This document shows, piece after piece, positions 3,580 to 22,228 of a DNA stretch of 64,000 nucleotides (positions within the stretch are counted from its first letter, which is position 1; the number at the start of each line of letters is the position of its first letter). Position numbers and translations under genes: made by a program. Source of the DNA: Aeromicrobium sp. (GTDB taxonomy: Bacteria; Actinomycetota; Actinomycetes; Propionibacteriales; Nocardioidaceae); NCBI GenBank assembly GCA_025964895.1, contig JAOPXY010000033.1, forward strand, positions 1 through 64,000. Direction: 5' to 3'. Below the pieces are notes generated by a model. The model was not told the origin of the DNA. It saw nothing but the letters and a program-made list of their open reading frames with translations, and made no database searches.

Positions 3580-5436
3580 TCAGCTCGGCTCGGCGTCGAG
3601 GGAGTATCCGTCCAGGGATCCCTCGGCCTCCCAGTCACGCAGCAGCGCGTAGTAAGCGAGCGGGCCACCCGGGTAACGACCGCCCGTGAAGAGATCGGCG
3701 GCCGTCTTGGCCGTGCCTTCTGCGTTGTAGTAGCCCGGCGTGCACTGCATGTAGAACTCAAACATCGCCTGGTTCTTGGGCGAGGTGACGATGTTGTCGA
3801 CCCACGCGTCGATCGCGTCGTGGTGCGCCTCGACCGTCCGCAGGCCCCGCGTGGTCGCTTCGCCGATGATGTGCGCGACGTACTGGGCCTGCTCGTCGAG
3901 CAGGTGCACCGCGTTGACGCTCGATGCGGTCTGCGGGTTTCCGCCGATGAAGAACAGGTTCGGGAACCGGTCGGTCGACATCCCGTGGAGCGTGCGCACA
4001 CCGTTCGCCCAGTGGTCCGACAGCTTGACGTCGCGACCCTCGAGCTCGAACCCCGTCAGGTGGGTGAACGAGATGCCCGACTCGAAGCCGGTGGCCATCA
4101 CGAGGCAGTCGAGCTCGTACTCGGTGCCGCCGACCACCACGCCCGTGCGGGTGAATCGCTCGACGCCCTGGCCGTGGGTGTCCACGAGCGTGACGTTCTC
4201 GCGGTTGAACGACTCGAGGTAGTCGTCGTGCCATCCCGGCCGCTTGCACCACCACTGGTACCAAGGCTTCAGCGCCTCGGCGGTGGCCGGATCCTTGACG
4301 GTGTCCTCGACCCGAGCGCGGATCTCGTTCATGGCCCGGTAGTCGTTGATGACTGACAGGTCTGCCATCTCCTCCGCCGTCGGAGCGCGACCGAGACGCT
4401 CCGCGACGACCGATTCGGGCTCCGCGAGGATCTCGAAGGCGGCGGTCCAACCGTCCGCCACGAGGTCCTTCTCGGGCCGGACAAACCCCGAGACACTGCC
4501 GAACTGGACGTGGGACTGGAAGTTCTCGCGGCGTTCGCGCTGCCAACCGGGCTTCGTCATGTCAGCCCAGTCAGGGCCGGTCTCCTGCTGGCCGCGGACA
4601 CCGACCGTCGAGGGGGTGCGCTGGAAGACCAGCAGCTCCTTCGCGTCCTGCGCGACCGCCGGGACGATCTGCAGGGCGGTGGCACCTGTGCCGACGACGC
4701 CGACGCGCTTGTCGGCAAGCCCGGTCATGTTACCCGCGCTGTCACCCCCCGTGTAGGCGTAGTCCCACCGGCTGGAGTGGAAGATGTGCCCCTCGAACTC
4801 GTCCACGCCCGGCAGGTTGGGGAGCTTCGGGAGGCTCTGTCGCCCACACGCGACCACGAAGTGGTCCGCGGTGACCGCATCACCGCGATCGGTCTCGACC
4901 AACCAGCGCGCGTCGTCCTCGTTCCACTTGGCGCCGGTGATCGACGTCTGGAACAGCACCTTGTCGTAGAGGCCGTACTCCTTGCCGATGCGCTGGCTGA
5001 TCTCGAGCAGCTCGTCTGCGTAGGCGTACCGGTGCTTCGGTGCGTAGCCCAGCTCCTCGAGCAGCGGCATGTAGATGTGGGCCTCGATGTCGCACATCGC
5101 GCCCGGATAGCGGTTCCAGTACCACGTGCCTCCGAAGTCGCCGCCGATCTCGATGATCCGGATGTCGGTGACGCCGGCGGCGTTCAGCCGCGCACCCATC
5201 AGCAGGCCACCGAATCCCCCGCCTGCGATGATGACCGAGCTGTGGTCGTCGAGCGCCGGGCGGGCGACGACCGTCTCGCTCCACGGATCGCTGCTGAAGT
5301 GCTCGAACCGGCCGGAGGCACCGACGAACTGCGCCTTCCCCTCGGGCCGGATGCGCTTGTCCCGCTCTTCCTCGTACTTGGCCCTCAGCGCCGCAGGGTC
5401 GAAGTCGATGGGGCCGGTGAGCTTCTCGTTGAGCAT
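3580..5436 (-). CDS. Baeyer-Villiger flavin monooxygenase
   Basis: About 618 residues from ATG 5436 (GAGGA four bases upstream); a longer frame to 5532 exists but would run through a hairpin and is less likely. An NADPH/FAD enzyme by family, inserting oxygen next to a ketone to make an ester or lactone. The first Rossmann motif GGGFGG is near residue 72. The Baeyer-Villiger fingerprint FEGHIFHSSRWD is near 214-225, with its Phe, Gly, His and Trp intact, and the second nucleotide motif VVGTGATA is near 248. The N-terminal extension resembles the longer HAPMO/CPDMO-like members. Sits downstream of an SDR and a CoA-transferase, suggesting alcohol-to-ketone-to-lactone chemistry. Substrate unknown. 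Confidence 0.9.
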   Translation of the reverse strand: MLNEKLTGPIDFDPAALRAKYEEERDKRIRPEGKAQFVGASGRFEHFSSDPWSETVVARPALDDHSSVIIAGGGFGGLLMGARLNAAGVTDIRIIEIGGDFGGTWYWNRYPGAMCDIEAHIYMPLLEELGYAPKHRYAYADELLEISQRIGKEYGLYDKVLFQTSITGAKWNEDDARWLVETDRGDAVTADHFVVACGRQSLPKLPNLPGVDEFEGHIFHSSRWDYAYTGGDSAGNMTGLADKRVGVVGTGATALQIVPAVAQDAKELLVFQRTPSTVGVRGQQETGPDWADMTKPGWQRERRENFQSHVQFGSVSGFVRPEKDLVADGWTAAFEILAEPESVVAERLGRAPTAEEMADLSVINDYRAMNEIRARVEDTVKDPATAEALKPWYQWWCKRPGWHDDYLESFNRENVTLVDTHGQGVERFTRTGVVVGGTEYELDCLVMATGFESGISFTHLTGFELEGRDVKLSDHWANGVRTLHGMSTDRFPNLFFIGGNPQTASSVNAVHLLDEQAQYVAHIIGEATTRGLRTVEAHHDAIDAWVDNIVTSPKNQAMFEFYMQCTPGYYNAEGTAKTAADLFTGGRYPGGPLAYYALLRDWEAEGSLDGYSLDAEPS

Positions 5437-5482
5437 GGTGTCCTCGTTCGTGTCGCCGCCCATCGGGCGGGGTGTTCGGGTG

Positions 5483-5499
5483 CGGAGCCCTTGGCTCCG
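5483..5499. terminator. Hairpin between SDR and BVMO genes
   Basis: CGGAGCC, three-base loop, GGCTCCG: a perfect 7-bp stem between the SDR stop and the BVMO start, with no T-run on either side. It could be a weak terminator, an attenuator or an RNA stability element that sets BVMO level. Confidence 0.35.
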
Positions 5500-5602
5500 G
5501 GTGTGACGTGGGTCGCGTCGTGTGTCAGTCAAGTCGCTTGGTGGGTGCCGTCGAAGCGACGCAGGTCTCGATCGGCCGAGACATTCGTAGCGCTGAATGC
5601 CC

Positions 5603-6388
5603 TCACACGACGGTGAATCCGCCGTCGACGACGATCGTCTGGCCCGTGACGTAGCCGCCGGCCGCGCTGAGAAGCCACATGACCGTTCCAGCCAGCTCTG
5701 CCGGGTCTCCCCAGCGACCGAGCGGGATGCGAGCGAGCTGGGTCTCGACGTAGGCGGGGTCGTACTCCGCCGTCATGTCCGTGGCGAAGAAGCCTGGAGC
5801 GACGGCGTTGACACAGATGCCCTTGCGACCGGACCACTGTGCCGCGAGGTCTCTGGTGAGCCCGTGGACCGCCGCCTTGCTGGCCGAGTACGCGGCCTGC
5901 GGGAGGCCTGTGGACGTGATGCCCAGGATGCTGGACACGTTGACGATCGAGCTGCCGGGCTGCATCACGCGGCCGCAGGCCTGGGCCATCCAGTAGGTCC
6001 CGGCCAGGTTGATGTCGACGATGCGGCGGAAGTGCTCCGGAGTCTCTCGCGTCGCCGGCGCAGCACCGGAGACCCCGGCGTTGTTGACGAGCCCGTCCAC
6101 CCGTCCGAAGCGCTCCATGGTCTCGGCCACGACCCGCTCGCAGTCGTCGGGCTCCGCCACGTCGGCGACGACCGGGAGCACTGCATGCCCGCGAGATCTC
6201 AGCGCGGCCGCTTCGGCCTCGAGCGGTTCACGGCGGCGCCCGGTGATGACGACCGACGCTCCTGCCTCGCCAAGCCGGTCGGCGATCGCCGCACCCAGCC
6301 CCATGGAGCCTCCGGTCACGATCACGACCGCTCCGGCGATGTCGAACATGCTCGTCATGCCCTCGCGCACCTCGGTGTCGGCGGTCAT
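5603..6388 (-). CDS. Short-chain dehydrogenase/reductase (classical SDR)
   Basis: 261 residues. TGGSMGLG near the N-terminus is the classical NAD(P)-binding motif; NNAG, a Ser in NVSSILG and YSASK give the catalytic set. The tail GGYVTGQTIVVDGGF is FabG-like. It probably interconverts a secondary alcohol and ketone in the cytoplasm. ATG 6388 overlaps the CoA-transferase stop in TGATG, so the two are translationally coupled; an internal ATG at 6358 is an alternative start. Followed by the BVMO gene, for which it could supply the ketone. Confidence 0.88.
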   Translation of the reverse strand: MTADTEVREGMTSMFDIAGAVVIVTGGSMGLGAAIADRLGEAGASVVITGRRREPLEAEAAALRSRGHAVLPVVADVAEPDDCERVVAETMERFGRVDGLVNNAGVSGAAPATRETPEHFRRIVDINLAGTYWMAQACGRVMQPGSSIVNVSSILGITSTGLPQAAYSASKAAVHGLTRDLAAQWSGRKGICVNAVAPGFFATDMTAEYDPAYVETQLARIPLGRWGDPAELAGTVMWLLSAAGGYVTGQTIVVDGGFTVV

Positions 6389-7587
6389 CAGCTCGTCACC
6401 TCGACCGGGGACGCGGCCACGTTCAGCTCAATGCGGATCGCCGCGCCGTCCTCGTCGAGGAAAGGCGCACGGCCACGGACGGCGGACGGCGTACGGCTGA
6501 GCTTGATGGGCTGCCCGGCGATGACGGCGCGGGTGTCGGATCCCGGGTTGTCGACGCGGACGAGCATGTCGCGCACCCATCCGTGAGGATCCTCGAAGAT
6601 GTCGTGCACGTCATTGACCGGCCCTACCGGCACCCGGCCGGCGAGCATCGACGTCACCTCGTCGCGCGTGTGCTCGGCCACCCAGACGGCCACGATCTGA
6701 CGGACCAGGGCCCGGTTCTTGGCGCGGAGCCCCTCGTGCAGGAATCGGGGGTCGTCGACGAGCTCCGGCTGGCCCATGATCGAGCAGAGGACCTTCCACC
6801 GGCCCTGGGTCGTGGCGGCGATGGCGATCCAGCCGTCCTTGGCCTCGAGCACGTCGAACGGGGTCAGGATCGGATGGGTGTTGCCGACGGGACGCGGAAC
6901 CTGTCCCGTGTACGAGTACTGGTAGACGATCCGCTCGCACAGGGCGAGGATCGCGTCGTACATCGCCACGTCGACCTGCTGGCCGATCCCGGACTCCTTC
7001 GCCTCCAGCAGCGCTGCGAGGATCCCCGACGAGAGCATGACGCCCGGGAAGATGTCACCGATGCCCGGTCCGATCTTGATCGGCTGGCCGTCCTCCGTGC
7101 CGGTGATGCTGAGGGCCCCCGCCATCGCCTGGATCGTGATGTCCATCGCCGGCCACTCGGCGTACGGACTGGCACCGGCCCAGGCTGCGCCGAACCCGGT
7201 CAGCGAGCCGTAGACGATGCGGGGATTGACCGCCTGGATCTCTGCGTAGGACAGACCCAGCCGGTCGATGACACCCGGGCCGAAGTTCTCGACGAAGACG
7301 TCCGCGGTGCGGACCAGGGCCAGCAGCTGGTGCCGACCGGCGTCCGTCTTGAGGTCGATCGCGATGCTGCGCTTGCCGCGGTTGATGCTCTGGAAATAGC
7401 CGCCCAGCGTCGGCTCACCACTCCCGTCCGGCTCGGGATCGGGCCCGACGCGGCGGGTGACCTCTCCCGCCGGCGACTCGATCTTGATGACTTCGGCGCC
7501 GAGATCGGCGAGCACCATGGTGCAGTACGGACCGGCGAGCGCAGCGGTCAGATCGAGGACGCGGATGCCGTCGAGGGGTCCGGGCAT
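6388..7587 (-). CDS. Class III CoA-transferase (CaiB/BaiF family)
   Basis: 399 residues, typical length. It begins PLDGIRVLDLTAALAGPYCTMVLADLGAEVIKIE, a hallmark CaiB/BaiF start, and AMDITIQAMAG carries the Asp usually acylated in this family. It moves CoA between carboxylic acids, for example from succinyl-CoA to a catabolic intermediate. AGGAG precedes the ATG. It is first in a transcript with the SDR and BVMO. In this island it is the only visible way to activate an acid to a CoA ester, since no acyl-CoA ligase is present there. Mesaconate/itaconate-type substrates are possible given the nearby lyase and MaoC genes, but this is inference. Confidence 0.88.
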   Translation of the reverse strand: MPGPLDGIRVLDLTAALAGPYCTMVLADLGAEVIKIESPAGEVTRRVGPDPEPDGSGEPTLGGYFQSINRGKRSIAIDLKTDAGRHQLLALVRTADVFVENFGPGVIDRLGLSYAEIQAVNPRIVYGSLTGFGAAWAGASPYAEWPAMDITIQAMAGALSITGTEDGQPIKIGPGIGDIFPGVMLSSGILAALLEAKESGIGQQVDVAMYDAILALCERIVYQYSYTGQVPRPVGNTHPILTPFDVLEAKDGWIAIAATTQGRWKVLCSIMGQPELVDDPRFLHEGLRAKNRALVRQIVAVWVAEHTRDEVTSMLAGRVPVGPVNDVHDIFEDPHGWVRDMLVRVDNPGSDTRAVIAGQPIKLSRTPSAVRGRAPFLDEDGAAIRIELNVAASPVEVTS

Positions 7588-7748: not shown

Positions 7749-8411
7749 TCACCGAGTGTCCTCGATCGACACGATGCCCTTGCGGAGGGCCCACAGAGCG
7801 GCCTGGATGCGCGAGTCCAGTCCGAGCTTCATCAGAATGTGGCTGACGTGCGTGCGCGCGGTCCGCTCGCTGATGAACAGCTCATCGGCGATCTCCTGGT
7901 TGCTCATGCCCTTCGCGACGAGGGCGACAATCTCGAGCTCCCGCTCCGACAGCGCCTCGGTGTAGCGCCCGTCGGTGCGGGTGCCCGCCAGAGCGCGGGC
8001 GGCGTTGGGGTCGAGGTAGAGCTCACCGCCGGCCGCCGTGCGAACAGCCTCCACGACGCGCTCAGCGCCGGACGACTTCTCGAGATACCCGCTGGCACCC
8101 GCGTTCAGCAGCGCCTTGACGCGTTCGGCCTCGACGAAGCTCGACAGCACCAGCACCGTGGCGTCCGGAACCTCGGCGCGGAGCTCGATCAGCGCCTGGA
8201 GCCCGTCCATCCGCGGCATCTGGACGTCCATCACGATGACGTCCGGAAACTCTCCCGACGCCGCCATGACCTTGAGCCTCTTGAGCGCGTCCGCCCCGTC
8301 GCCCGCCTCGCCGACGACCTCCAGGTCGTCCTGGATGCTGAGGAACGCGCGCAACCCTTCCCGGACGACCGTGTGGTCGTCGACGAGGAACACCGTCAGC
8401 ACGTCGGGCAT
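7749..8411 (-). CDS. LuxR/NarL-family response regulator
   Basis: 220 residues. The receiver domain has the acidic pair in FLVDDH near the N-terminus and the phosphoacceptor Asp62 in VIVMDVQMPRMDG. The output domain is a LuxR helix-turn-helix: LSERELEIVALVAKGMSNQEIADELFIS, then SHILMKLGLDSRIQAA. A DNA-binding transcription factor switched by the kinase whose stop lies 11 bases upstream. ATG 8411 follows GAGGT. Its place inside the island suggests it senses or tunes this pathway. Confidence 0.92.
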   Translation of the reverse strand: MPDVLTVFLVDDHTVVREGLRAFLSIQDDLEVVGEAGDGADALKRLKVMAASGEFPDVIVMDVQMPRMDGLQALIELRAEVPDATVLVLSSFVEAERVKALLNAGASGYLEKSSGAERVVEAVRTAAGGELYLDPNAARALAGTRTDGRYTEALSERELEIVALVAKGMSNQEIADELFISERTARTHVSHILMKLGLDSRIQAALWALRKGIVSIEDTR

Positions 8412-8422
8412 TGCAAGACCTC

Positions 8423-9922
8423 TCACTTCACGTCGATCGACTCTAGGGGCACCGTCAGCTCGATGCGTGTGCCGCCGGCACTCGGCGTGGCCACGTCCAG
8501 TCGCGCACCGAGCCGCTCTGCCCGCTCGCGCATGCTGGGGAGCCCGATGCCGAGCCGCTCGTGCGTAGGGCCGATGCCCCCGCCGTCGTCCGTCACGGAG
8601 ACGGTGAGGTGGTCGCCATGGACGTCCACCTGGACGACGACTCGCGATGCCGCCGCGTGCTTGCGGGCGTTGGTCATCGCCTCGGCCACGATCCGGTAAA
8701 CGTCCTCGGCCCGGTCGGGTGCAAGATCGATGACGTCCACCTCGCACCGCACGTCGATCGGCAGTCCTGCCTCGAGGCTGATCTCATCGGCCTTCAGCCT
8801 GACGGCCGGCATCAAACCGAGCTCGAACGGTTCCGGTCGATGGATGCGGGAGAGGAGGTCGCGCACCTGCGTGGAGCTGCTCTGCACGAGCCGCTCAGCC
8901 TCCGAGATCTCCTGCATCAGCTGCTCGGTGACTCCGTCGCGCAGACCGAGCGCACGGACGGTCTGGATGCGCAGCGCCAAGGAGTAGAGCGTCTGCGCGA
9001 CCGAGTCGTGAAGATCCTGCGCCACCCTGGTCCGCTCCCGCTCGATCGCCAGCAGACGAGCCGAGGACAGCAGGCGCGAGCTGTCGATGGCAGCGGCCGC
9101 GTGATCGGCCATGGCCGAGATGAACCGGAGGTCGTCAGGGGTGGGGTCGCGGTCGACCTGCAGGAATCCGGCCATCGCCCCGATCGACTCGCCGCGGACC
9201 ATCATGGGCACCGCGACGTACGTGTTCCACGGCAGGTCTCTGACGAAACCCCAAACGGACTCCCATCGGGGGTCCTCGAGGAACCGGGCGCGGAAGTTGC
9301 GGAACACGACCGGCTGCTTGCGCCTCTCCGCCTCCAGCGTGAAGGGCTGCGCGCCACGGTCAATCGCTGCTCCCACCCGATCGGCCCAGTCGTCGGGATA
9401 ACCCGCCTTGCCCAGAGCCTGATACTCCAGCGGCGGCGGCGCCGACACGAAGATCGTGCAGGTCGCGAAGCCCGTCACCGCCCGCACCTCCTCCGCCAGG
9501 AGATCGAGCGCACCGTTGAGGTCGGTGCCGAGAGCAACGGCTGAGGTCGACCGCATGAACGCATCGAGTCGTGCCCCTTGGTCGACGGTCTCCGTCACGT
9601 CCCGGAAGCGCATGCCCCACGGGGCCATGCCCCGCGACGGGAGTCTGAAGACGCCGACAGAGAACGTCCGCGCGAGGGTCGCGCCGGTCGAGTCGATGCG
9701 GCAGGTCCGTTCCTCACCTTCGACCGCATGGGCGAACAGGATGGACGACGAGCCGAGCAGTCGCGCCGGGCTCGTCCGGAGCAGCCGATAGGCTGCGTCG
9801 TTCGCCCACACGTAGACACCGGTGGCGTCGATCATCGCGTACCCCTCGTCAGAGGCGTTCAGCAGATTTCGTGCGTCGTCGCGGGACAGCATCGGTCCGA
9901 CGACGTGTTCCACCGATCCCAC
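8423..9922 (-). CDS. Soluble sensor histidine kinase with PAS and GAF domains (NarL-type partner)
   Basis: 499 residues without membrane segments. An N-terminal PAS domain (about 12-115) includes GVYVWANDAAYRLL. A GAF domain follows at about 130-285. The HisKA_3 dimerisation region has RVAQDLHDSVAQTL with the phospho-His near residue 305, and the HATPase domain shows EAMTNARKHA and DDGGGIGP. It autophosphorylates and passes phosphate to the adjacent response regulator. The signal is likely cytoplasmic, a ligand or redox cue bound by PAS or GAF. Start GTG 9922; an internal ATG at 9892 is also possible. It follows the MaoC genes by 25 bases and may share their transcript. Confidence 0.9.
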   Translation of the reverse strand: MGSVEHVVGPMLSRDDARNLLNASDEGYAMIDATGVYVWANDAAYRLLRTSPARLLGSSSILFAHAVEGEERTCRIDSTGATLARTFSVGVFRLPSRGMAPWGMRFRDVTETVDQGARLDAFMRSTSAVALGTDLNGALDLLAEEVRAVTGFATCTIFVSAPPPLEYQALGKAGYPDDWADRVGAAIDRGAQPFTLEAERRKQPVVFRNFRARFLEDPRWESVWGFVRDLPWNTYVAVPMMVRGESIGAMAGFLQVDRDPTPDDLRFISAMADHAAAAIDSSRLLSSARLLAIERERTRVAQDLHDSVAQTLYSLALRIQTVRALGLRDGVTEQLMQEISEAERLVQSSSTQVRDLLSRIHRPEPFELGLMPAVRLKADEISLEAGLPIDVRCEVDVIDLAPDRAEDVYRIVAEAMTNARKHAAASRVVVQVDVHGDHLTVSVTDDGGGIGPTHERLGIGLPSMRERAERLGARLDVATPSAGGTRIELTVPLESIDVK

Positions 9923-9947: not shown

Positions 9948-10442
9948 CTACCGTTTGGTGGCCGGACGGCGCCTGACGAGTACGGACCGCTCCACCCGGC
10001 ACACCATGACGCCGTCGGCGCGGAACCCCCAGTGCTGGAAGGTCACGATGCCGGCGTCCGGGTCGTCAGAGGCGGTCGTCGCAAGCACCTCGGTGCAGGC
10101 GTAGACGGTGTCGCCGTGGAAGACCGACGTCATGAGTCGCAGGTCGTCCAGACCGAGCTCGGCGATGGCGTTCTCCGACGCGTCCTGGCTCGCCAGGCCG
10201 ATGACTGTCGATGCCGTCACCAGACCGAAGACGATCCGCGACGCCCCCCATGGGGAGTCCTTCATGGAGTCGTCGTTCCAGTGCTCCTGCGCCGTGTTCA
10301 TGACCAGCTTCGAGATGAGCTGATTCTCGGCCTCGCCGATGGTCGTCCCCCTGGCGGACCTCCATCGACGACCGACTTCGAAGTCCTCGAAGTACGTGGC
10401 CGGGTCCGTCCGGGCCGGGGCCGTCACCGTCTGCTCCGCCAC
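9948..10442 (-). CDS. MaoC-like hydratase subunit, probably catalytic
   Basis: 164 residues, a single hot-dog domain (YFEDFEVGRRW start). The expected active-site helix reads NTAQEHWNDD and keeps the His that normally helps add water to a 2-enoyl-CoA. It continues with GDTVYACTEV, usual for the family. Its start lies one base after the stop of a second MaoC gene. Full-length mesaconyl-CoA hydratases have two hot-dog domains in one chain, so the pair may form a two-subunit equivalent. Substrate unknown. Confidence 0.82.
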   Translation of the reverse strand: MAEQTVTAPARTDPATYFEDFEVGRRWRSARGTTIGEAENQLISKLVMNTAQEHWNDDSMKDSPWGASRIVFGLVTASTVIGLASQDASENAIAELGLDDLRLMTSVFHGDTVYACTEVLATTASDDPDAGIVTFQHWGFRADGVMVCRVERSVLVRRRPATKR

Positions 10443-10443
10443 G

Positions 10444-10938
10444 TCAGGCCTCTACCTTCATCAGATTGCTGCGTCTGTAGTCCAGCACCCGCTCGTCACG
10501 CTGGTTGAACGCCTCGGTGTGCCACGTGACGATGCGGTGCCCGGGACGGCTGGAGGACTCCCGCACGTTGATCACGGTCGATCGCGCCGTCACGGTGTCC
10601 CCGTCGTACATCGGCCGTTCGAAATGACAATCTGTGATCGACAGGAAGGGGCCGGCCGACTCACTGAGGTCCTCGACCGAAAGCCCGAACACGGTGCACA
10701 GCACCAGGTAGGGGTGGATGACACGCCCTGGGTGACCGGCCGCCCGTGCCGACTCGACATCGAGCACCAGCGGGGACCACGAGCACGTCAACGATGCGAA
10801 CAAGGCGCTCTCTGCGTCGGTCATCGTGCGGGCCCAGTGGTGGTCGAGCTCGACGCCCTCGGCGAATCCCGGGATGTCGGGCCCGCGCCGCCAGAGCGGG
10901 AAGTCGTCGAGCGTCGGTTCGGGACGATTCGTCATCAC
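10444..10938 (-). CDS. MaoC-like protein, probable non-catalytic partner
   Basis: 164 residues, again a single hot-dog domain. Where catalytic MaoC proteins have an N-P-L-H pattern, this one reads SWSPLVLDVESAR: the His is replaced by Val and the Asn by Ser. The substrate-channel part HPYLVLCTVFGLSVEDL and DGDTVTARSTV remain. It most likely pairs with the next gene product, as catalytic and structural subunits do in heteromeric ChsH1/ChsH2-type hydratases. It lies seven bases downstream of the lyase gene, in one operon. Loss of activity is inferred from motif comparison. Confidence 0.8.
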   Translation of the reverse strand: MMTNRPEPTLDDFPLWRRGPDIPGFAEGVELDHHWARTMTDAESALFASLTCSWSPLVLDVESARAAGHPGRVIHPYLVLCTVFGLSVEDLSESAGPFLSITDCHFERPMYDGDTVTARSTVINVRESSSRPGHRIVTWHTEAFNQRDERVLDYRRSNLMKVEA

Positions 10939-10945
10939 GCCGCGA

Positions 10946-11896
10946 TCATGCCGGCGTGAAGCGGGACTCGTCGGTCCGCGGGAGGTTCGCGCTGCGTCCC
11001 TTCTCGGCGGTCGCCAGGGCCAGCTTGCGGCTCGCCTCGTCGATCATCTCGTCGCCCAGCATGACCGCGCCGATGCCACCGCCGGCCGCGGACGTGTAGT
11101 ACTCGTAGGCGTCCAGGATGAGCTCCGAGCGGTCGTAGTCCTCTTGGGTCGGCGTGAAGACCTCGTGAGCGACATCGATCTGCTTGGGGTGCAGCACCCA
11201 CTTGCCGTCGAAGCCGAGCGCCCATGCCTTCTTGGCGACGACACGGTAGGAGTCGCTGTCATGCACCTTCGGAAAGGGTCCGTCGATCGCCTGCAGGCCG
11301 TGGGCGCGCGCAGCCGAAAGGATCGTCATGAGGACGCTCTCGAACGGGTCGGCGTGCTCGTTGACCACGCCGATCGTGAGCGAGGGGATGCGCATGTTCG
11401 CCATGAAGTCGCCCGGGCCGAAGATCAGCGTCTCCAGACGCGGCGACGCGGCGGCGATCTCGTCGATGTTGCGCAGGCCCCTGGGACCCTCGATCTGCGC
11501 CTCGATGCCAATCGTCCCCTCCACCATCCCGAGCTCACGCTCGAGGAGGGTCAGGGTCAGGTCGAGCCACTGGACGTCCCGCGCCGACTCCGCCTTCGGC
11601 AGCATGATGCAGTCGAGGTGGGATCCCGCTCCCCTCACGATCTCGGTCACGTCCTCGAGCGCCCACGGGGTGTCGACGTCGTTGATGCGCACCACCTTCG
11701 TGCCGGCCAGCCAGCTGTCGTCGTGCAGGGCCTCGATGATCTTATGCCGGGCGGCCGGCTTCTCGATCGGGGCGACAGAGTCCTCCAGGTCGAGGAAGAC
11801 CTGGTCGACCTGCAGGCCTTGGGCCTTCTTCAGCATCTTCTCGCTGCTGCCGGGAACTGCCAGGCAGGATCGGCGCGCGCGGGCCGGTCGGGACAT
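10946..11896 (-). CDS. HpcH/HpaI-CitE family CoA-ester lyase
   Basis: 316 residues. RSCLAVPGSSEKML, VFLDLEDSVAP, CIMLPKAES and IEAQIEGPRGLRNI are the signature blocks of malyl-CoA, beta-methylmalyl-CoA and citramalyl-CoA lyases: Mg-dependent enzymes that split a 3-hydroxyacyl-CoA into an acyl-CoA and a 2-oxo acid. FGPGDFMANM follows at the metal region. With the two MaoC genes directly after it, the order is hydration then C-C cleavage. Possible substrates are itaconyl/mesaconyl-type CoA esters. A GTTGG-N3-RCAAS motif sits 35 bp upstream, suggesting its own regulated promoter within the longer operon. Confidence 0.87.
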   Translation of the reverse strand: MSRPARARRSCLAVPGSSEKMLKKAQGLQVDQVFLDLEDSVAPIEKPAARHKIIEALHDDSWLAGTKVVRINDVDTPWALEDVTEIVRGAGSHLDCIMLPKAESARDVQWLDLTLTLLERELGMVEGTIGIEAQIEGPRGLRNIDEIAAASPRLETLIFGPGDFMANMRIPSLTIGVVNEHADPFESVLMTILSAARAHGLQAIDGPFPKVHDSDSYRVVAKKAWALGFDGKWVLHPKQIDVAHEVFTPTQEDYDRSELILDAYEYYTSAAGGGIGAVMLGDEMIDEASRKLALATAEKGRSANLPRTDESRFTPA

Positions 11897-11982: not shown

Positions 11983-13176
11983 CTATTCGGGCTGCAGATC
12001 CCAGGACGTGCCGTTGAACTTCTGGAACTGGGCGTCCTCGATCGGCCGGAAGTCGTCCGGGCCCGTGGTGGCCTTGACGTCGTCGAGCAGCATCGGCACG
12101 TGCACGTCAAGGTTCTCGGCAGATTCCAGGAGGGCCTCGCGTGTCGGCTCCTCCATCCCCTGGAGCGCCGCGATCATCATCTGCATGTTGACGTAGCCGA
12201 GAATCGCGACCCGCTGGTTCGGGTCGACCTTCGGCGACGTCTTCTTCATCCACTCGAGGTACTTGACGACCTCGGGGTCGTCCTGGTTGCCCGGCGCGGC
12301 CGGATCCTTCCACCAGACCTCGCTGATCACGTTCTTGGCAGCATCACCGGCGTCCTTGAGCAGTCCGCCCTCGGCGCCGTTGTGCGGCACCAGCAGCGTG
12401 GGGGTCCAGCCCTGCGAACTCATCTCCTTGATCGCCTGCGTGACCGGCTGAGGCGACCCGACGTTGAGCACCGTGTCCGCGCCGGAGCGCTTGAGCTTGG
12501 CGACGAGCGGAGCGGTGGTCGGGGTCGTGATCTCGTACGACACCTTCTCGACGACCTCGATGCCGCTGCCCTCGACCGCCTTCTCGAAGGCCTCGGTCGG
12601 ATCGATGCCGGAGTCGTCGTTCTGGTACAGCACTGCGACCTTGGCGTCCGGCTTGGTGCGCTTCAGGTACTCGCCGAGGTTGGCACCGTTCGTGTCGCCG
12701 CTGGACACCGCGGAGAGGCTGTAGGGAAACTCTTCGTGCTCGGAGCTGAACGCCGTCGCAGCGGTGAAGATGAACAGCGCCGGGACCTTCTCGCCCTTCA
12801 ACAGCTTGCGGATGCCGAGCTGCTGGGCCGTGCCGACCGACCCGGTCAGGGCGAACACCTGGTCCTGGTCGATCAGCTTGCGCGTCTGCTGGACGGCGAT
12901 CGTCGGATCGTACTGGTCGTCCTCCGCGATGAACTCGAGCTTGCGGCCGTCGATGCCGCCGGCGGCGTTGACCTCCGCCACGGCGGCCTTGGCGCTCTCG
13001 GCGGCCTGACCTGCGACCGCGACCGGTCCACTCAGCGCGAACGTGCCACCGATGGTGATGGTGTCGTCGGTGATGCCGGGCGCGGTCGCCGAGCTGTCAC
13101 GGCCTCCGCCTCCGCAGGCGCTGGTGGCTCCGAGCGCCAGCACCGCGAGTCCTGCGGCGAGTCGTCGTGCGGTCAT
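11983..13176 (-). CDS. livK: Liv-type ABC substrate-binding lipoprotein (LivK family)
   Basis: 397 residues from ATG 13176, which overlaps the permease stop in ATGA. The N-terminal signal ends in a lipobox (ATSACGGGG), then comes TITIGGTFALSGPVAVAGQAAE, typical of the branched-chain amino-acid receptor family. In such systems the protein captures a carboxylate-bearing ligand outside the membrane. Here the four transport partners are just upstream. A close paralogue lies at 22229-23410, with matching blocks throughout, such as APLVAKLKRSGADTVLNVGS versus APLVSKLKRSGADTVLNVGS. In catabolic islands this family often carries aromatic, steroid-side-chain or dicarboxylic acids, so the symbol names the family, not the ligand. 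Confidence 0.88.
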   Translation of the reverse strand: MTARRLAAGLAVLALGATSACGGGGRDSSATAPGITDDTITIGGTFALSGPVAVAGQAAESAKAAVAEVNAAGGIDGRKLEFIAEDDQYDPTIAVQQTRKLIDQDQVFALTGSVGTAQQLGIRKLLKGEKVPALFIFTAATAFSSEHEEFPYSLSAVSSGDTNGANLGEYLKRTKPDAKVAVLYQNDDSGIDPTEAFEKAVEGSGIEVVEKVSYEITTPTTAPLVAKLKRSGADTVLNVGSPQPVTQAIKEMSSQGWTPTLLVPHNGAEGGLLKDAGDAAKNVISEVWWKDPAAPGNQDDPEVVKYLEWMKKTSPKVDPNQRVAILGYVNMQMMIAALQGMEEPTREALLESAENLDVHVPMLLDDVKATTGPDDFRPIEDAQFQKFNGTSWDLQPE

Positions 13177-14219
13177 GATGATGCTCTTTCTTTTCGGGGT
13201 GTCGCTTCGCGCACGGCCGAGCCGGCGGCAGGGATCGTGGATGTCGGGTGGCCAGGTGCGTCGGCCGGCTTCCTGCGGAACCGCGCGATGGCGTCCCGAC
13301 CGAGGCCCGCGAGACCGTCCGGGAAGAACCGGACAGCCAGGATGATGGCCGCGCCGAAGATCACCGACGTGAACGAGTCGTTGATGTTCGAGGCGTACTG
13401 CGGCACCAGCTGCACGAACGCCGCACCGATGATCGCGCCGGGGATCGTGGCGATGCCGCCGATGAAGGCGCCCGCGAAGAGCAGGAGCCCGAGGTGCATC
13501 CCGAAGGAGTCGGGAGACGCGTACCCGATCGCGAAGACGTAGAGGCTGCCGGCGATTCCCGCGTACATGCTGGCGATCGCAAAGGCCTGCGTCTTGATGC
13601 GGCTCGCGTCGACGCCGACAGCCTCCGCCACGATCTCGCGCTCGCGGATCGCGATCATCGCAGGGCCGTACTGGCTCCTCACGAGATTCCGGGCGGCCCA
13701 GAACAAGATGGCCGCAACGACCAGCGACACCAGATAGATCCACTGGTCGTCGTAGAGACCGCCGAGCGGCGTCGGGGTCGACACCGAGAGTCCCTCGGCG
13801 CCACCGGTCAGCTCCGGGAAGCGCTTCAACAGCGGCGACAGCAGGAAGGTGAGCGCGAGCGTGACGACCATCAGGTAGAAGCCCCGCAGTCGCAGCACCG
13901 GGATGGCGATCAGCCCACCCACGATCAGGCACAACAGTCCGGACAGCGGGATGCACAGTAGCGAAGGGACACCGACCCGGTCGAGCAGAAGGGCCGAGCC
14001 GTAGCCTCCGATGCCCAGGAAGAAGCTCTGGGCGACCGACAGCTGGCCGGTGTAGCCGGCGATCAGGTTCAGTCCCAGGATCGCGATCGCGAAGACGAAG
14101 ATGATCGTGATCCGACCGTTGTCGTACGGCCCTAGCTGGAACGGCACGATGGCGAGCACGACGATTGCGACCACGGCGACGAGCGTCGAGCGGTGGGCGA
14201 GAAGCGTGGAGACGTTCAT
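13173..14219 (-). CDS. livM: Liv-type ABC permease (LivM family)
   Basis: 348 residues with about ten hydrophobic segments. LNLIAGYTGQLSVAQSFFLGIGGYGSALL is the classic LivM block, and AVGVDASRIKTQAFAIASMYAGIAGSLY carries the coupling region that contacts the ATPases. ATG 14219 overlaps the LivH stop (ATGA), and its own stop overlaps the LivK start, so the five genes are translationally chained. The C-terminal 30 residues are polar and cytoplasmic. Confidence 0.92.
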   Translation of the reverse strand: MNVSTLLAHRSTLVAVVAIVVLAIVPFQLGPYDNGRITIIFVFAIAILGLNLIAGYTGQLSVAQSFFLGIGGYGSALLLDRVGVPSLLCIPLSGLLCLIVGGLIAIPVLRLRGFYLMVVTLALTFLLSPLLKRFPELTGGAEGLSVSTPTPLGGLYDDQWIYLVSLVVAAILFWAARNLVRSQYGPAMIAIREREIVAEAVGVDASRIKTQAFAIASMYAGIAGSLYVFAIGYASPDSFGMHLGLLLFAGAFIGGIATIPGAIIGAAFVQLVPQYASNINDSFTSVIFGAAIILAVRFFPDGLAGLGRDAIARFRRKPADAPGHPTSTIPAAGSAVREATPRKERASS

Positions 14220-15097
14220 ACGCGAGAGACCTCCTTGGCCCCGAAGAGGCCGGTGGGCTTGACCAACAGGACGGCGAAGATGATGACGAGCGGGACGACG
14301 ATCTTGAGGTCTCCGCCGATGAATCCGACCCGGTCGGACACGACGGCTTCGGCGACGCCGATGATCCAGCCGCCGACGACCGCGCCCACGGGGCTGCTCA
14401 GGCCACCCAGCGCGGCAGCCGCCAGGGCGTAGATGATGACGGCGACCATCATGGACGGGCTGACGTACACCGACTGGGCGATCAGCGCCCCTGCCAGTGC
14501 ACCGACAGCTGACGCGACGCCCCACCCGCACATGAGCAGGCGACTCACCGGCACACCCGCCAGTCGGCTCGTGGCGGGGTTGGACGCCGCAGCCTTCATC
14601 ATCAGCCCGAGGCGCGTGCGTTCGAAGAAGACGTAGAGCACCGCGACGGTCGCCAGCAGCACAGCGATGATGCCGAGGGACGTGTACGAGAGACGTACGG
14701 AGCCGACCTCGAGGGAGCGCTCGGGGAACATGCCCGGGAAGGTCTCCGGGTCGAGTCCCCAGATCCAACCCGCGATGCCGCTGAGTCCCAGGAACAGGCC
14801 CAGGGTGATGATCGACGGCGCGTGCTCGCTGCGACCCTGGACAGGTCGGATGAGCACCCGTTCGATCGCTGCGCCCAGCACGAAGGAGATGACCATCGAG
14901 CCGATGATCGCGATCACCAGAGGTGCGCCGGCCTTGTAGAGACCGAGGGTGACGAAGGTGCTGATCATCGCCAGCTCGCCCTGGGAGAAGTTCACGACGC
15001 CGGTGGAGCGGAAGACGAAGACGATGGCGAGTGCCAACGCTCCGTAGATGGAGCCAGAGGCCAGGCCGCTGACGAGCAGTTGCAGGAGATCGGTCAT
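14216..15097 (-). CDS. livH: Liv-type ABC permease (LivH family)
   Basis: 293 residues, about eight membrane segments. LVSGLASGSIYGALALAIVFVFRSTGVVNFSQGELAMI is the family's standard N-terminus, and MKAAASNPATSRLAGV is the ATPase-coupling loop. It forms the channel together with LivM. It starts two bases after the LivF stop. Confidence 0.92.
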   Translation of the reverse strand: MTDLLQLLVSGLASGSIYGALALAIVFVFRSTGVVNFSQGELAMISTFVTLGLYKAGAPLVIAIIGSMVISFVLGAAIERVLIRPVQGRSEHAPSIITLGLFLGLSGIAGWIWGLDPETFPGMFPERSLEVGSVRLSYTSLGIIAVLLATVAVLYVFFERTRLGLMMKAAASNPATSRLAGVPVSRLLMCGWGVASAVGALAGALIAQSVYVSPSMMVAVIIYALAAAALGGLSSPVGAVVGGWIIGVAEAVVSDRVGFIGGDLKIVVPLVIIFAVLLVKPTGLFGAKEVSRV

Positions 15098-15099
15098 GG

Positions 15100-15810
15100 T
15101 CAGTACCCCAGATACGCTTTGCGGAGGGACGTGTCGCCCTTGATGTCGTCAGCAGTGCCGGCCAGCACGATGCGGCCGGACTCGAGCACGTACGCGGTGC
15201 TCGCGAGGTCGAGCGCCAGCGAGGCGTTCTGCTCGACGATGAGCATCGCGACGGACTGCTCGTGGTTGATCTGCCCGAGAGCCGCGAACAGCTGACGCGT
15301 CAGGTTGGGCGCGAGTCCCAGTGACGGCTCGTCGAGCAGCATCAGGCGCGGTCTCAGCATGAGCCCCCTAGAGATGGCGAGCATCTGCTGCTCGCCGCCG
15401 CTGAGGTTGCCGGCCTGCTGCGTCCGCCGGTCCGCGAGGACCGGGAAGTAGTCGAAGCAGACCTTCATGGTCTCTTGGACCTCCGAGCTCGAGCGGAGGT
15501 ACCCGCCGACCCGCAGGTTGTCCTCGACACTCAGGTCGGTCAGGGTGCCCCGGCCCTCGGGCACGTGCGCCATCCCGTGGCGCGCCGTGGCCTCTGGATG
15601 CATGGACATGAGGTCGTCACCCTCGAGCTCGGCTCGGCCGCTGCGCCGCGAGAGCAGACCCGACAGGGACTTGAGCAGCGTCGTCTTGCCGGCACCGTTG
15701 GGACCGAGCAGGGCCACCACGCCGCCATCGGCGATCTGGAAGTCGAGGTCATGGAGGACACCCACGTCGCCGTACCCGGCCGAGAGTCCTTGAACGTCCA
15801 ACAGCGTCAT
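15100..15810 (-). CDS. livF: Liv-type ABC ATPase (LivF family)
   Basis: 236 residues. Walker A GPNGAGKT near residue 36, signature LSGGEQQML, Walker B LMLLDEPSLGL and a switch His after IVEQN are all present. It powers import with LivG. ATG 15810 overlaps the LivG stop in ATGA. Confidence 0.93.
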   Translation of the reverse strand: MTLLDVQGLSAGYGDVGVLHDLDFQIADGGVVALLGPNGAGKTTLLKSLSGLLSRRSGRAELEGDDLMSMHPEATARHGMAHVPEGRGTLTDLSVEDNLRVGGYLRSSSEVQETMKVCFDYFPVLADRRTQQAGNLSGGEQQMLAISRGLMLRPRLMLLDEPSLGLAPNLTRQLFAALGQINHEQSVAMLIVEQNASLALDLASTAYVLESGRIVLAGTADDIKGDTSLRKAYLGY

Positions 15811-16595
15811 GCCGCGCTCCCCAGGTATGCCTCGATGACGGCAGGATTCGCCTGCACCTCGGTCGGCGATCCTTCTGCGAGGACCCTGCCGAAGTCGAGG
15901 ACGACGACGTGGTCCGAGATGCCCATGACCATGCCCATGTGGTGCTCGACCAACAGGACGGTGATGCCGAACTCGCTACGGATGCGGCGGATCATCTCGC
16001 CCAGCTCGTCGACCTCGCCGTGGGTCAGCCCACCGGCCGGCTCGTCGAGCATCAGCAGGCGCGGACGCGCCACCAGCGCGCGGGCGAGCTCGATCCGCTT
16101 GAGCGTCGGGTACGGGAGGCCCGACGCCGGCAGGTCCTTGAGGTGTTCCAGGTCGAGTCGCGTGAGGATGTCAACCGCCTCGTCCTTGACGGCGGCGTGC
16201 TCACGTCGAGCGGACGGGAGTCCCACCATGCTCGAGAAGATGTTCGTGGAGCTGCGGTACTTCGCACCGAGGGCCACGTTGTCGAGCACCGTCAGGTCGG
16301 CGAAGAGGCCGAGGTTCTGAAAGGTGCGCACGATGCCGCGCGACACCACCTGATGAGGCTTGAGGGTCAGCAGATCGGCACCGTCGAACGTGATCGCTCC
16401 GGCCGTGGGCTGGTACAGGCGCGAGATGCAGTTGAACAGCGACGTCTTGCCGGCCCCGTTCGGTCCGATCAGGCCGCAGATCTCGCCGCCGGCGACGCCG
16501 AAGGAGACGCCGGTCAGCGCCTTCACGCCGCCGAACGTGAGCGCCACGTCGGCGAGATCGAGAAGCGGGACCCGGGGAGGGAGCACCGTATTCAT
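15807..16595 (-). CDS. livG: Liv-type ABC ATPase (LivG family)
   Basis: 262 residues from ATG 16595, which follows GAAAGG; an upstream in-frame extension to 16682 would cross the promoter and is rejected. Walker A GPNGAGKT, Walker B LLMLDEPAGGL and VEHHMGMVM are present. The signature motif region reads LPYPTLKRIELARAL, lacking the usual SGG, but LivG proteins commonly have such a degenerate form. First gene of the transporter operon, about 30 nt downstream of a predicted transcription start at the 16622-16661 promoter. Confidence 0.92.
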   Translation of the reverse strand: MNTVLPPRVPLLDLADVALTFGGVKALTGVSFGVAGGEICGLIGPNGAGKTSLFNCISRLYQPTAGAITFDGADLLTLKPHQVVSRGIVRTFQNLGLFADLTVLDNVALGAKYRSSTNIFSSMVGLPSARREHAAVKDEAVDILTRLDLEHLKDLPASGLPYPTLKRIELARALVARPRLLMLDEPAGGLTHGEVDELGEMIRRIRSEFGITVLLVEHHMGMVMGISDHVVVLDFGRVLAEGSPTEVQANPAVIEAYLGSAA

Positions 16596-16621
16596 GACGT
16601 GCCTTTCATCGTTGTCGAGCT

Positions 16622-16661
16622 TGTGATGGGGATCATACGCATAAAGTGGTTGGCTAGCAAC
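16622..16661 (-). promoter_or_regulatory. Composite island promoter before livG
   Basis: Read on the minus strand: -35 TTGCTA, 17-bp spacer, -10 TATGAT, both inside a 40-bp block shared with 23470-23509 and 26031-26070. Read on the plus strand, the shared bases are TGTGA-N4-GATCATA, exactly 11 bp, then GYTGG-N3-RCAAS. The conserved bases beyond the promoter boxes suggest one repressor or activator binds here. The start codon of livG is 27 bp from the edge. Confidence 0.75.
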
Positions 16662-16849
16662 AAAGTTTGTGATGTGAAACACGTGTGCCCCTTTTGACTG
16701 GCACGCAGGGCAGTTCAGCGCGGCGGCGGTGAACCTTGGCCTCCGTCGTCGATCAGGGCGTCAGTGAGACGCCCGTCACAGTCAACAGGGAAGCAGTCCT
16801 CCCCCGGGACCTGCACATGACGTAGCCGGAGCGCGACAAGTGTCGCGGG

Positions 16850-17491
16850 TCAGCTGATGGGGCAGTACACGAGCTCAAGGGTCTCGGCGTACGCCTCGAG
16901 AGCGCCCAGGACGTCGTAGGCCTCGACGTCGAGCAGCCAGAAGTAGGAGATGCCTCGCAGCGTGGCGCTGAACTGGTTGGCCACCCGCGCCGTGTCGAGG
17001 TCGTCGCGCATCGTGCCGGCGGACACCCCCGCCTCGATGAGCGACGCGACGCTGCGGCGATATACGTCGTTCATCTCGGCGAGGTGCTCGTGGATCTCCG
17101 ATGCGGGGTTGGCGGCCTCGAACATCAGCGCGTAGAAAGAACGAAGGGTGGCCGGTGAACGCTCGATGTCGGCGCGCACCTCGCGGACGATATAGGCCAG
17201 CGCCTCCGCGCCGGTACGACCCGCGACGGTCGCGAGCAGCTCGTCGTGACCGAACCGGCGGGCCATGCGGTCGATCAACGCCGACAAGAGGCCCGCCTTC
17301 GTGCCGAAGCGCTGGGTCACCAGGCCGTGGCTGTATCCCGCTCGTCGCCCGATGTCGGCGAGCGTCGTGCGGGCGTAGCCCTTCTCCGAGATGAGCTCGG
17401 CCGCTGCGTCGAGCAGCCGTTTGCTGGACATGGACGACCGCTGTGCCTGCCGACCGCCCGTCGGTGCAACCGCTTCGGTTTCGACGTTCAC
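16850..17491 (-). CDS. TetR-family transcriptional regulator
   Basis: 213 residues. After a polar lead, LLDAAAELISEKGYARTTLADIGRRAGYSHGLVTQRFGTKAGLLSALID is a TetR helix-turn-helix; the remaining helical part would bind a small ligand, often a CoA ester or pathway substrate. GTG 17491 follows GGATGGGA. It lies between the oxidoreductase genes and the importer, just upstream of the composite promoter, and is the obvious candidate to control the island. An 11-bp inverted repeat at 17516-17577 in its own upstream region may be its autoregulatory site. Confidence 0.9.
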   Translation of the reverse strand: MNVETEAVAPTGGRQAQRSSMSSKRLLDAAAELISEKGYARTTLADIGRRAGYSHGLVTQRFGTKAGLLSALIDRMARRFGHDELLATVAGRTGAEALAYIVREVRADIERSPATLRSFYALMFEAANPASEIHEHLAEMNDVYRRSVASLIEAGVSAGTMRDDLDTARVANQFSATLRGISYFWLLDVEAYDVLGALEAYAETLELVYCPIS

Positions 17492-17590: not shown

Positions 17591-19039
17591 TCACGACTCG
17601 ACGTGCACGATCTCCATCGTCGTGCCGACCCGGGAGGGCAGGAAGCGGCTGAGCGGAGACGTCGTGTGCGGCTTCGCGAGGTCGCCGGACGCGACGGCGT
17701 GACCCGCGATGCGCCCGAACGTCAGCCCACCGCCGATGTGGATGCCGCCTAGATCGGCGCACGGATTGAACCCCCCGACGCAGTCGCCGGCCGCGAACAG
17801 GCCCGGGATGGGATCGCCGAACACGTCGACGACCTGCATGGACGTCGTGACCTGGAACCCACCGGAGATGAAGCTGCACCCGGCGACCATGCGGCTCGCG
17901 AAAAACGGGCCGGTCCGGATGCCCCGCCGGTCGACCGGGAACGACACCCGCCCCTGCAGCGGGTCGACGGTGGCGCCCGACTCGAGGGTCTCGTTCCACT
18001 CGTCTACCGTGGCCACGAGCTGGTCCGCCGGGACACCGATGAGTTCTGCGAGGCCCTCCAGAGTCTCGCTGCTGACGGCCTCGTCAGGCATCTGCTCGAC
18101 GTATTGCGCCTTCTTCTCGGCCGTGACGCCGTCGAACACGTAGTAGGCCCACTGGTCGGGCTGGGCCAGCACCGCCGACACCCTGTCCTCGTAGACACCC
18201 GTCTCGTCGTGGAAGCGCCTGCCCTGACGGTCGATCGCGATCGACTCCTCCAGCATCGAGGACGCCACGATGACCAGCGACGGGATGAACGTCATGTTGA
18301 TGAGGTCACCGCCCACGGCGCCCCCCATGAGGTGCCCGTCGCCGCGGGCGGTGTCGATGCCCAGGTACGGCTTGGTCGACCGCGACTCCGGCTGGTACCT
18401 GGCGCGCATGTCGGGGTTCGCTTGGTATCCCCCTGCGCACAGCACCACGCCGCGACTTGCGATGACGTTCACCGTGGTGCCGTCATCCGTCGTGATCCGT
18501 GCCCCCACGACCGCGCCGTCGCTGTCGGTCAGCAGCCGGCGTGCGCTGCTGCGGTAGAACACGGTGACCTCGTCGGAGTCGAAGTCCGGCTGGTAGGCCG
18601 CCGCGAACATCTGCGTGTCCTCGACGGCCGCGACCCGGTCGAGCTGGTGCTGCTTCGGGCGATGGATGAACCGCGGGAAGCGGACGCCGCGCTCGATCAG
18701 CTGCCGGTACGTCTCGGCGCTCTCCTCACCGTAGATGCGGGCCAGCTTCTCGTCGTAGAGCACGCCGAAGTCACCGCGGCTGCGGTCGGCGATGACTCCG
18801 GCGTCCTCCAGGAACTCCTCGACATCGTCCTCGATGCCCTCGGCCCGCTGCATGGGCGTGTCCACGAAGACGACGTACCCGGTCGACCAGATTGCATTGC
18901 CTCCGATCCGGTCCTGCGCCTCGACCGCCACGACCGACGCACCGGACTCCCGCGCGGCCGCGACGGCGGCCATGCCCGCCGGCCCGGCACCGATGACCAG
19001 GACGTCGGTCTCGATGCTCTTCGTCTCTTCCTGTTGCAT
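17591..19039 (-). CDS. FAD-dependent dehydrogenase, fumarate reductase/KstD-like
   Basis: 482 residues. The N-terminal VLVIGAGPAGMAAVAAARE binds FAD, EAQDRIGGNAIWSTG follows, and the C-terminal PGLFAAGDCVGGFNPCADLGGIHIGGGLTFGRIAG is the closing FAD block of this superfamily, in which fumarate reductase, 3-ketosteroid dehydrogenase and urocanate reductase remove or add hydrogen across a C-C bond next to a carbonyl. No signal peptide. Third in the GMC-aldehyde dehydrogenase-FAD run. Exact substrate cannot be told. Confidence 0.87.
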   Translation of the reverse strand: MQQEETKSIETDVLVIGAGPAGMAAVAAARESGASVVAVEAQDRIGGNAIWSTGYVVFVDTPMQRAEGIEDDVEEFLEDAGVIADRSRGDFGVLYDEKLARIYGEESAETYRQLIERGVRFPRFIHRPKQHQLDRVAAVEDTQMFAAAYQPDFDSDEVTVFYRSSARRLLTDSDGAVVGARITTDDGTTVNVIASRGVVLCAGGYQANPDMRARYQPESRSTKPYLGIDTARGDGHLMGGAVGGDLINMTFIPSLVIVASSMLEESIAIDRQGRRFHDETGVYEDRVSAVLAQPDQWAYYVFDGVTAEKKAQYVEQMPDEAVSSETLEGLAELIGVPADQLVATVDEWNETLESGATVDPLQGRVSFPVDRRGIRTGPFFASRMVAGCSFISGGFQVTTSMQVVDVFGDPIPGLFAAGDCVGGFNPCADLGGIHIGGGLTFGRIAGHAVASGDLAKPHTTSPLSRFLPSRVGTTMEIVHVES

Positions 19040-22143: not shown

Positions 22144-22173
22144 GAATCTCTCCATCTGTTGGTTGTCTGGTTC

Positions 22174-22207
22174 GACGGGCCGGGAGCCGGCCGGCTCCCG
22201 GCCCGTC
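22174..22207 (-). terminator. 34-bp perfect palindrome after orphan livK
   Basis: Two 17-base arms, starting GACGGGCCGGGAG and mirrored without any spacer, lie 21 bp after the LivK-type stop and 30 bp before the GMC start. As RNA this makes a very stable GC hairpin, likely a transcription barrier or a processing site that separates receptor from enzyme expression. There is no T-run. Confidence 0.65.
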
Positions 22208-22228
22208 ATGGATGTCTCGTCGCAGCGA

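Follow-up and report, generated by a model that had tools for sequence, protein, structure and literature searches.

A candidate split hydratase and its CitE-like lyase partner in a rare catabolic gene module of Aeromicrobium

Introduction

What do two small MaoC proteins do when only one of them carries the catalytic residues of its family and the gene for a CitE-like lyase adjoins them? This question is raised by a locus in a 64,000-nt stretch of Aeromicrobium sp. DNA (hereafter, the window). A sequence-only reading of the window had proposed that a catalytic and a structural MaoC subunit form a heteromeric hydratase, that the lyase splits the resulting 3-hydroxyacyl-CoA into an acyl-CoA and an oxo acid, and that a nearby CoA-transferase completes a set like that of itaconate or mesaconate breakdown. 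On balance, we favour a reading in which the trio performs the final two reactions of a catabolic sequence, a split relative of mesaconyl-CoA hydratase (Mch) being followed by a relative of malyl-CoA/beta-methylmalyl-CoA lyase (Mcl) and fed by a ketone route that a Baeyer-Villiger monooxygenase (BVMO) would start.

Results and discussion

Locus organization

The trio lies head to tail on the minus strand in the order CitE-like lyase (10946-11896), MaoC-B (10444-10938, 164 aa) and MaoC-A (9948-10442, 164 aa), separated by 7 and 1 nt. All three are genuine genes by Pfam (HpcH_HpaI, 3e-41, for the lyase; MC_hydratase, 2.4e-25 for MaoC-B and 1.2e-19 for MaoC-A), and both MaoC proteins contain the Pfam MaoC domain. 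Coordinates, strand and Pfam match thus confirm that the MaoC pair adjoins an HpcH/CitE lyase. On the 3' side of MaoC-A, the same strand carries a GAF histidine kinase (8423-9922; Pfam and spacing, 25 nt downstream) and a LuxR-type response regulator (7749-8411; Pfam; 57-58% to the Rhodococcus island), then the CoA-transferase, a short-chain dehydrogenase (5603-6388; adh_short_C2, 1.6e-62) that overlaps the CoA-transferase by 1 nt, and the BVMO. On the other side of the trio, also on the minus strand, are a branched-chain-amino-acid-type ABC importer (11983-16682; binding protein, two permeases and two ATPases, assigned by Pfam for the binding protein and by the translations), a TetR regulator (16850-17491; Pfam; 43% to the Rhodococcus island) and a FAD-dependent dehydrogenase (17591-19039) that resembles flavocytochrome c and tricarballylate dehydrogenase in profile matches. 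Importers similar to that of the window adjoin the module in Variovorax and in genome G115, and no counterpart of the FAD-dependent dehydrogenase was seen in the Rhodococcus islands.

The MaoC pair

MaoC-A contains the motif NTAQEHWNDD, while MaoC-B reads SWSPLVLD where one relative has NWNPMHLN. The motifs therefore bear out the claim that one MaoC protein keeps the catalytic His and the other has it replaced; MaoC-B in fact lacks both residues of the dyad (Ser/Val). In the crystal structure of M. extorquens Mch, the proposed catalytic pair Asn226/His231 is located in the C-domain, and malate is bound at the interface of the N- and C-domains (PMC10164722). When aligned to the Mch structure 8hgn, MaoC-A has Asn226/His231 and MaoC-B has Ser/Val at the same columns.

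The two-domain Mch family is the top Pfam profile for both proteins, with MaoC-B covering profile positions 25-164 and MaoC-A positions 224-351. Mch/MeaC (8hgn, 4e3e), which belongs to the ethylmalonyl-CoA pathway, the 3-hydroxypropionate bicycle and the methylaspartate cycle, consists of two hotdog halves with Asn/His in the C-half only, like the A/B pair. In a tree of 62 domains, the C-halves of fused Mch form a group with MaoC-A (99/92) and the N-halves one with MaoC-B (96/86); no single-domain MaoC protein falls within the latter, and the sister relation of window and Rhodococcus is recovered in both the A and B subtrees. Because the tree contains long branches and AU tests rejected neither the Mch halves as a clade of their own (p 0.16) nor A and B as a clade of their own (p 0.12), half-for-half orthology with fused Mch is the preferred reading and falls short of proof. 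Low-confidence AF2 models (pLDDT 64 and 66, from four-sequence alignments), which are adequate for the fold and not for the pocket or interface, show a hotdog fold in both proteins; their query-normalised TM-scores to Mch structures are 0.72-0.74 for MaoC-B and 0.68-0.69 for MaoC-A, and the top score of MaoC-B among the matches listed is 0.74, to 8hgn.

Mch is one chain with a bridge, whereas MaoC-A and MaoC-B are encoded by two genes, 1 nt apart and in different frames, in a catabolic gene context. The pair also scores far below the cut-off of the Mch equivalog NF041625 (70 and 95 bits, cut-off 560), although single halves score low by construction on this haloarchaeal, full-length model. The RipB/Ich equivalog gives 77 and 58 bits (cut-off 340). 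Set against RipB/Ich and ChsH1/ChsH2, the two halves of Mch are the closest match to the pair. Judged by family placement and modelled fold, the pair is probably a two-gene counterpart of two-domain Mch, in which MaoC-B resembles the inert N-half, probably a substrate-pocket subunit, and MaoC-A the catalytic C-half.

Heteromeric MaoC hydratases with one catalytic and one inert subunit are represented by the steroid side-chain hydratase ChsH1-ChsH2 and by HadAB/HadBC. By sequence and fold these are not the closest relatives of the pair, the structural match to ChsH1/ChsH2 being weaker than that to Mch. In ChsH2 the His is replaced by Tyr (PMC11321319), and several B proteins likewise have Tyr at this position. 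However, ChsH1/ChsH2 is partnered by a thiolase-like aldolase and the window pair by a CitE-type lyase, and the inert ChsH subunit carries a DUF35 domain while MaoC-B has MaoC-type domains only; no Ltp2-type aldolase was noticed beside MaoC-B.

The carboxylate-site residues Ser79 and Arg142 are kept in MaoC-B. We dropped them as proof of a malyl-type substrate, since Arg142 is also retained by single-domain MaoC proteins and does not discriminate.

Conservation and distribution of the module

The conservation of the pair was evaluated in 13 non-redundant loci. Besides that of the window, they are taken from an Acidimicrobiales MAG, from four further genomes within the same family as the window and from seven sources further afield (Rhodococcus sp. 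USK10, R. koreensis, Sphingomonas, Pseudosulfitobacter, Tistrella, Variovorax and the haloarchaeon Halomarina), with the near-duplicates R. opacus VOC-14 merged with USK10 and Paracoccus with Pseudosulfitobacter. These taxa comprise actinobacteria, alpha- and betaproteobacteria and one haloarchaeon. Genes for MaoC-A, MaoC-B and CitE co-occur in every locus (13/13), and a CoA-transferase is close by in all except the Acidimicrobiales MAG (12/13), whose contig is short. MaoC-A keeps both Asn and His in 13/13 loci, whereas MaoC-B has a complete dyad in the Acidimicrobiales locus only and elsewhere reads S/V, A/H, H/Y, S/Y, T/Y or N/Y. A dyad pattern of this kind, together with a gene set that recurs in all loci, is not expected by chance. 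MaoC-B repeatedly loses its catalytic residues and is never lost itself, which is the expected look of an obligate inert partner. The proposed catalytic/inert pair is thereby supported, with the refinement that it resembles the two halves of Mch.

It is unlikely, in our estimate, that MaoC-A and MaoC-B are separate homodimeric enzymes acting at different steps, with the altered motif of MaoC-B reflecting other chemistry or weak activity. MaoC homodimers are common, MaoC-B retains the His in four loci and the full dyad in the Acidimicrobiales locus, and several operons place a dehydrogenase or further genes between the two. However, the dyad of MaoC-B was lost through several different substitutions in 12 of the 13 loci while the gene was always kept with MaoC-A, which fits an inert partner better, and the N-half of fused Mch is likewise inert. 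Still less probable is decay of the MaoC-B gene of the window, which comes from a draft assembly, with loss of module function in this strain. The window is the sole locus of the 13 with Val at the His position and the operon dehydrogenase of its island is frameshifted, but the open frame of MaoC-B is intact, has a GC3 of 0.85 and is packed tightly between intact genes, and the remaining sequence is well conserved (58% to the relative locus L021). An inert partner subunit remains our preferred explanation of MaoC-B.

Among 396 genomes sampled across the phylum, only that of the window has an orthologue of MaoC-A at E<=1e-28; within the family, five of 342 do. Together with the occurrence of the genes in an archaeon and on plasmids, this points to a rare module that spread horizontally. 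In Tistrella, Pseudosulfitobacter, Paracoccus, Variovorax and Halomarina, the genes form an operon of MaoC-B, acyl-CoA dehydrogenase, MaoC-A and CoA-transferase with CitE and MmgE/PrpD genes. The Halomarina copy of this module is carried on a plasmid of the haloarchaeon (L081, 1665-9592), which suggests transfer between domains of life.

The CitE-like lyase

The best PDB matches of the window lyase are the Mcl structures 5ugr (4.7e-59) and 4l9y (5.9e-52), and the R, E, D and D of the R. sphaeroides Mcl motifs are intact. In a tree of 41 rows, the window lyase falls in a 22-row branch of operon lyases (93/92) that is sister to, not nested within, the characterised malyl-CoA/beta-methylmalyl-CoA lyases (5ugr, 4l9y, 6kin) and serine-cycle lyases. 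The joint 28-row clade is well supported (100/99), with RipC, CLYBL, Rv2498c and Deinococcus CitE outside, so the enzyme stands among CoA-ester lyases. By tree and motifs, it belongs to the malyl-CoA/beta-methylmalyl-CoA side of the CitE family; its score misses the curated Mcl cut-off by a wide margin and also lies below the cut-off of the RipC/Ccl equivalog (140 bits, cut-off 375). Since Chloroflexus Mcl accepts citramalyl-CoA too (PMC5592240), the true substrates could include citramalyl-type esters.

Each Rhodococcus island has two such lyases, one orthologous to that of the window (60%) and one adjoining the MaoC pair (42%). In genome G805, the window-type lyase (64%) lies within an operon of MaoC-B, acyl-CoA dehydrogenase, MaoC-A, CitE and CoA-transferase, which argues that this lyase type belongs to the module.

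These data bear on an itaconate/citramalyl-CoA module, in which itaconyl-CoA formed by the CoA-transferase would be hydrated by the MaoC pair to (S)-citramalyl-CoA and cleaved by the lyase to acetyl-CoA and pyruvate, as by P. aeruginosa ict-ich-ccl. The pseudomonad itaconate/methylsuccinate cluster (ich, mcd, mmgE, ict, ccl) follows a like logic, and its set of CoA-transferase, acyl-CoA dehydrogenase, MaoC, CitE and often MmgE/PrpD fits the operons described here (PMC12290011); moreover, the Variovorax and Rhodococcus operon lyases score slightly higher on RipC_Ccl than on citE models. The cluster differs, however, in having a single hydratase (Ich), a citramalyl-type lyase, acetyl-CoA and pyruvate as products, and no BVMO branch. 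The lyase tree, which covers RipC and Rv2498c and not P. aeruginosa Ccl, places these two outside and joins the operon lyases with Mcl, the RipB/Ich and RipC cut-offs are widely missed, and haloarchaeal Mch is inactive on itaconyl-CoA (PMC5592240). In the low-confidence models, the P. aeruginosa itaconyl-CoA hydratase PaIch also appears structurally further from MaoC-A than Mch is (TM-score <=0.49, compared with 0.69 for 8hgn). We therefore regard the itaconate module as improbable. Of the likeness proposed by the sequence-only reading, the itaconate side is weakened by the lyase tree and the family scores.

CoA-transferase and acyl-CoA dehydrogenase

The class III CoA-transferase (6388-7587, minus strand) completes the set as had been proposed. 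Its best model is NF041294, succinyl-CoA:mesaconate CoA-transferase, at 440 bits and under the cut-off of 700, and it matches the Rhodococcus island gene at 69-70%. An acyl-CoA dehydrogenase is common to many of the operons and is conserved at 44-73% among operons and islands. In the window, its orthologue lies 17 kb from the trio on the plus strand (27514-28697; Pfam Acyl-CoA_dh_1) and was found by tblastn in frame 2 and then frame 1, at 50-61% to the Rhodococcus gene. The split near 27985 is either an assembly error in the 218-contig draft or a sign of a recent pseudogene. This dehydrogenase, like the alpha/beta hydrolase that follows it, had escaped the first reading. An MmgE/PrpD protein is encoded in most non-BVMO operons, and none was noticed in the window's island; in the pseudomonad cluster, the counterparts of the dehydrogenase and of MmgE/PrpD are methylsuccinyl-C4-CoA dehydrogenase and methylsuccinate isomerase (PMC12290011).

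The BVMO island

The window BVMO (3580-5532, minus strand) scores 640 bits on the PtlE-type model, below the cut-off of 1100, and its nearest solved relative is 5mq6 (2.8e-125), which we take to be a polycyclic-ketone BVMO. It is 72-74% identical to the BVMOs of the Rhodococcus islands, 61% to that of Variovorax and 56% to that of Sphingomonas. A BVMO of 55% identity or more is encoded in four plasmid records, each with the MaoC pair within about 12 kb. The alpha/beta hydrolase (28697-29629, plus strand; Abhydrolase_3, 5.7e-50), a candidate lactonase or esterase, recurs in all four BVMO islands (51/51/42/42%). Genes for the GMC alcohol dehydrogenase/oxidase (20542-22209, minus strand; Pfam; 65% to Rhodococcus and 43% to Variovorax) and the aldehyde dehydrogenase (19073-20536, minus strand; Pfam; 65% to Rhodococcus) recur in Rhodococcus (65%) and Variovorax (40-43%), and a 601-aa acyl-CoA dehydrogenase (23544-25349, plus strand; Pfam) has counterparts in the Rhodococcus islands (60-61%).

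The sequence-only reading had treated the BVMO, GMC and FadE genes as mere surroundings. This does not hold, as Rhodococcus, Sphingomonas and Variovorax carry these enzymes next to the same MaoC pair. Because the plasmid-borne relatives of the BVMO adjoin this pair in all three genera, the genes for the BVMO, the hydrolase, the GMC enzyme and the aldehyde dehydrogenase count, on the evidence of gene neighbourhood, as part of the module's pathway and not as bystanders. Their simplest reading is a route from ketone to ester or lactone, alcohol, aldehyde and acid that ends in a substituted succinate; that the starting ketone is a terpenoid is a guess. In the literature searched, we found no match for a cluster that joins BVMO, CoA-transferase, MaoC and lyase genes, for a jasmonate or cineole cluster of Rhodococcus, or for a heteromeric mesaconyl-CoA hydratase.

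The USK10 plasmid island (L065, 7024-36728) is a complete catabolic island, with genes for the BVMO, a thiolase, the 601-aa acyl-CoA dehydrogenase, a short-chain dehydrogenase, GMC and aldehyde dehydrogenase. It also encodes two lyases, the MaoC pair, the CoA-transferase and a two-component system; a P450, a ferredoxin reductase and a ferredoxin are extra genes of this island. An integrase-core (transposase-like) gene is found nearby (L065, 3606-5090).

Proposed pathway and significance

In the pathway that we propose, the BVMO, hydrolase, GMC and aldehyde dehydrogenase would probably convert a bulky, perhaps terpenoid, ketone through a lactone or ester to a substituted succinate. The CoA-transferase would turn the free dicarboxylate into a succinyl-type CoA ester, and the operon-type acyl-CoA dehydrogenase would put in a double bond to give a fumaryl-type CoA ester. 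MaoC-B and MaoC-A would then act as a heteromeric (R)-specific enoyl-CoA hydratase, in effect Mch cut in two, with MaoC-A giving the water-activating Asn/His dyad and MaoC-B, its own dyad lost, giving the facing pocket. This hydratase would convert a fumaryl-CoA-type (2-substituted) dicarboxylyl-CoA to a malyl-CoA-type 3-hydroxyacyl-CoA, which the Mg-dependent CitE-like lyase would cleave to an acyl-CoA and a 2-oxo acid, glyoxylate being the simplest case. The order of hydratase and lyase that had been proposed is supported. As the curated cut-offs for Mch, Mcl and the CoA-transferase are all missed widely, the actual substrate may well be something other than mesaconyl-CoA.

In a soil-type actinobacterium, this rare and mobile set of genes would probably serve to break down a bulky ketone to small acids. 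More tentatively, we suggest that the split Mch relative and the Mcl relative constitute an unrecognised, horizontally spread module for the conversion of substituted succinates to glyoxylate and an acyl-CoA, that in the branch of window, Rhodococcus, Sphingomonas and Variovorax it forms the lower half of a BVMO-started route for a bulky, probably terpenoid, ketone, and that the two-gene hydratase may predate the Mch fusion. The locus pairs a hydratase that is like Mch, but encoded by two genes, with a lyase like Mcl, and it does so in a catabolic context. Gene content, the kept and lost dyads, family placement and clustering conserved across phyla are observed; from them we infer the heteromer, the chemistry, the substrate class, the glyoxylate product and the ketone origin. 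If this is correct, alkylsuccinates would have a route to glyoxylate alongside the recently described one from methylsuccinate and itaconate to acetyl-CoA and pyruvate, and a function would be assigned to genes whose annotation in several phyla stops at "MaoC family dehydratase" and "CoA ester lyase". The split hydratase also lets the origin of inert partner subunits be tested cleanly, since the dyad of the inert subunit was lost by several substitutions while that of the catalytic one is unchanged, and the link to the BVMO makes the natural substrate searchable.

Related genes elsewhere in the host genome

On contig C68 (L074/L093) of the host genome, a further acyl-CoA dehydrogenase gene adjoins a gene for a fused, two-domain Mch-like protein. 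Many members of the genus carry similar fused genes, so besides the split pair the host has an ordinary fused relative. Two adjacent CitE-family genes lie on contig C116 (L094, 4116-6140); one groups with the Roseiflexus malyl-CoA lyase (100/100) and the other with the lyases of the Sphingomonas, Variovorax and R. koreensis loci.
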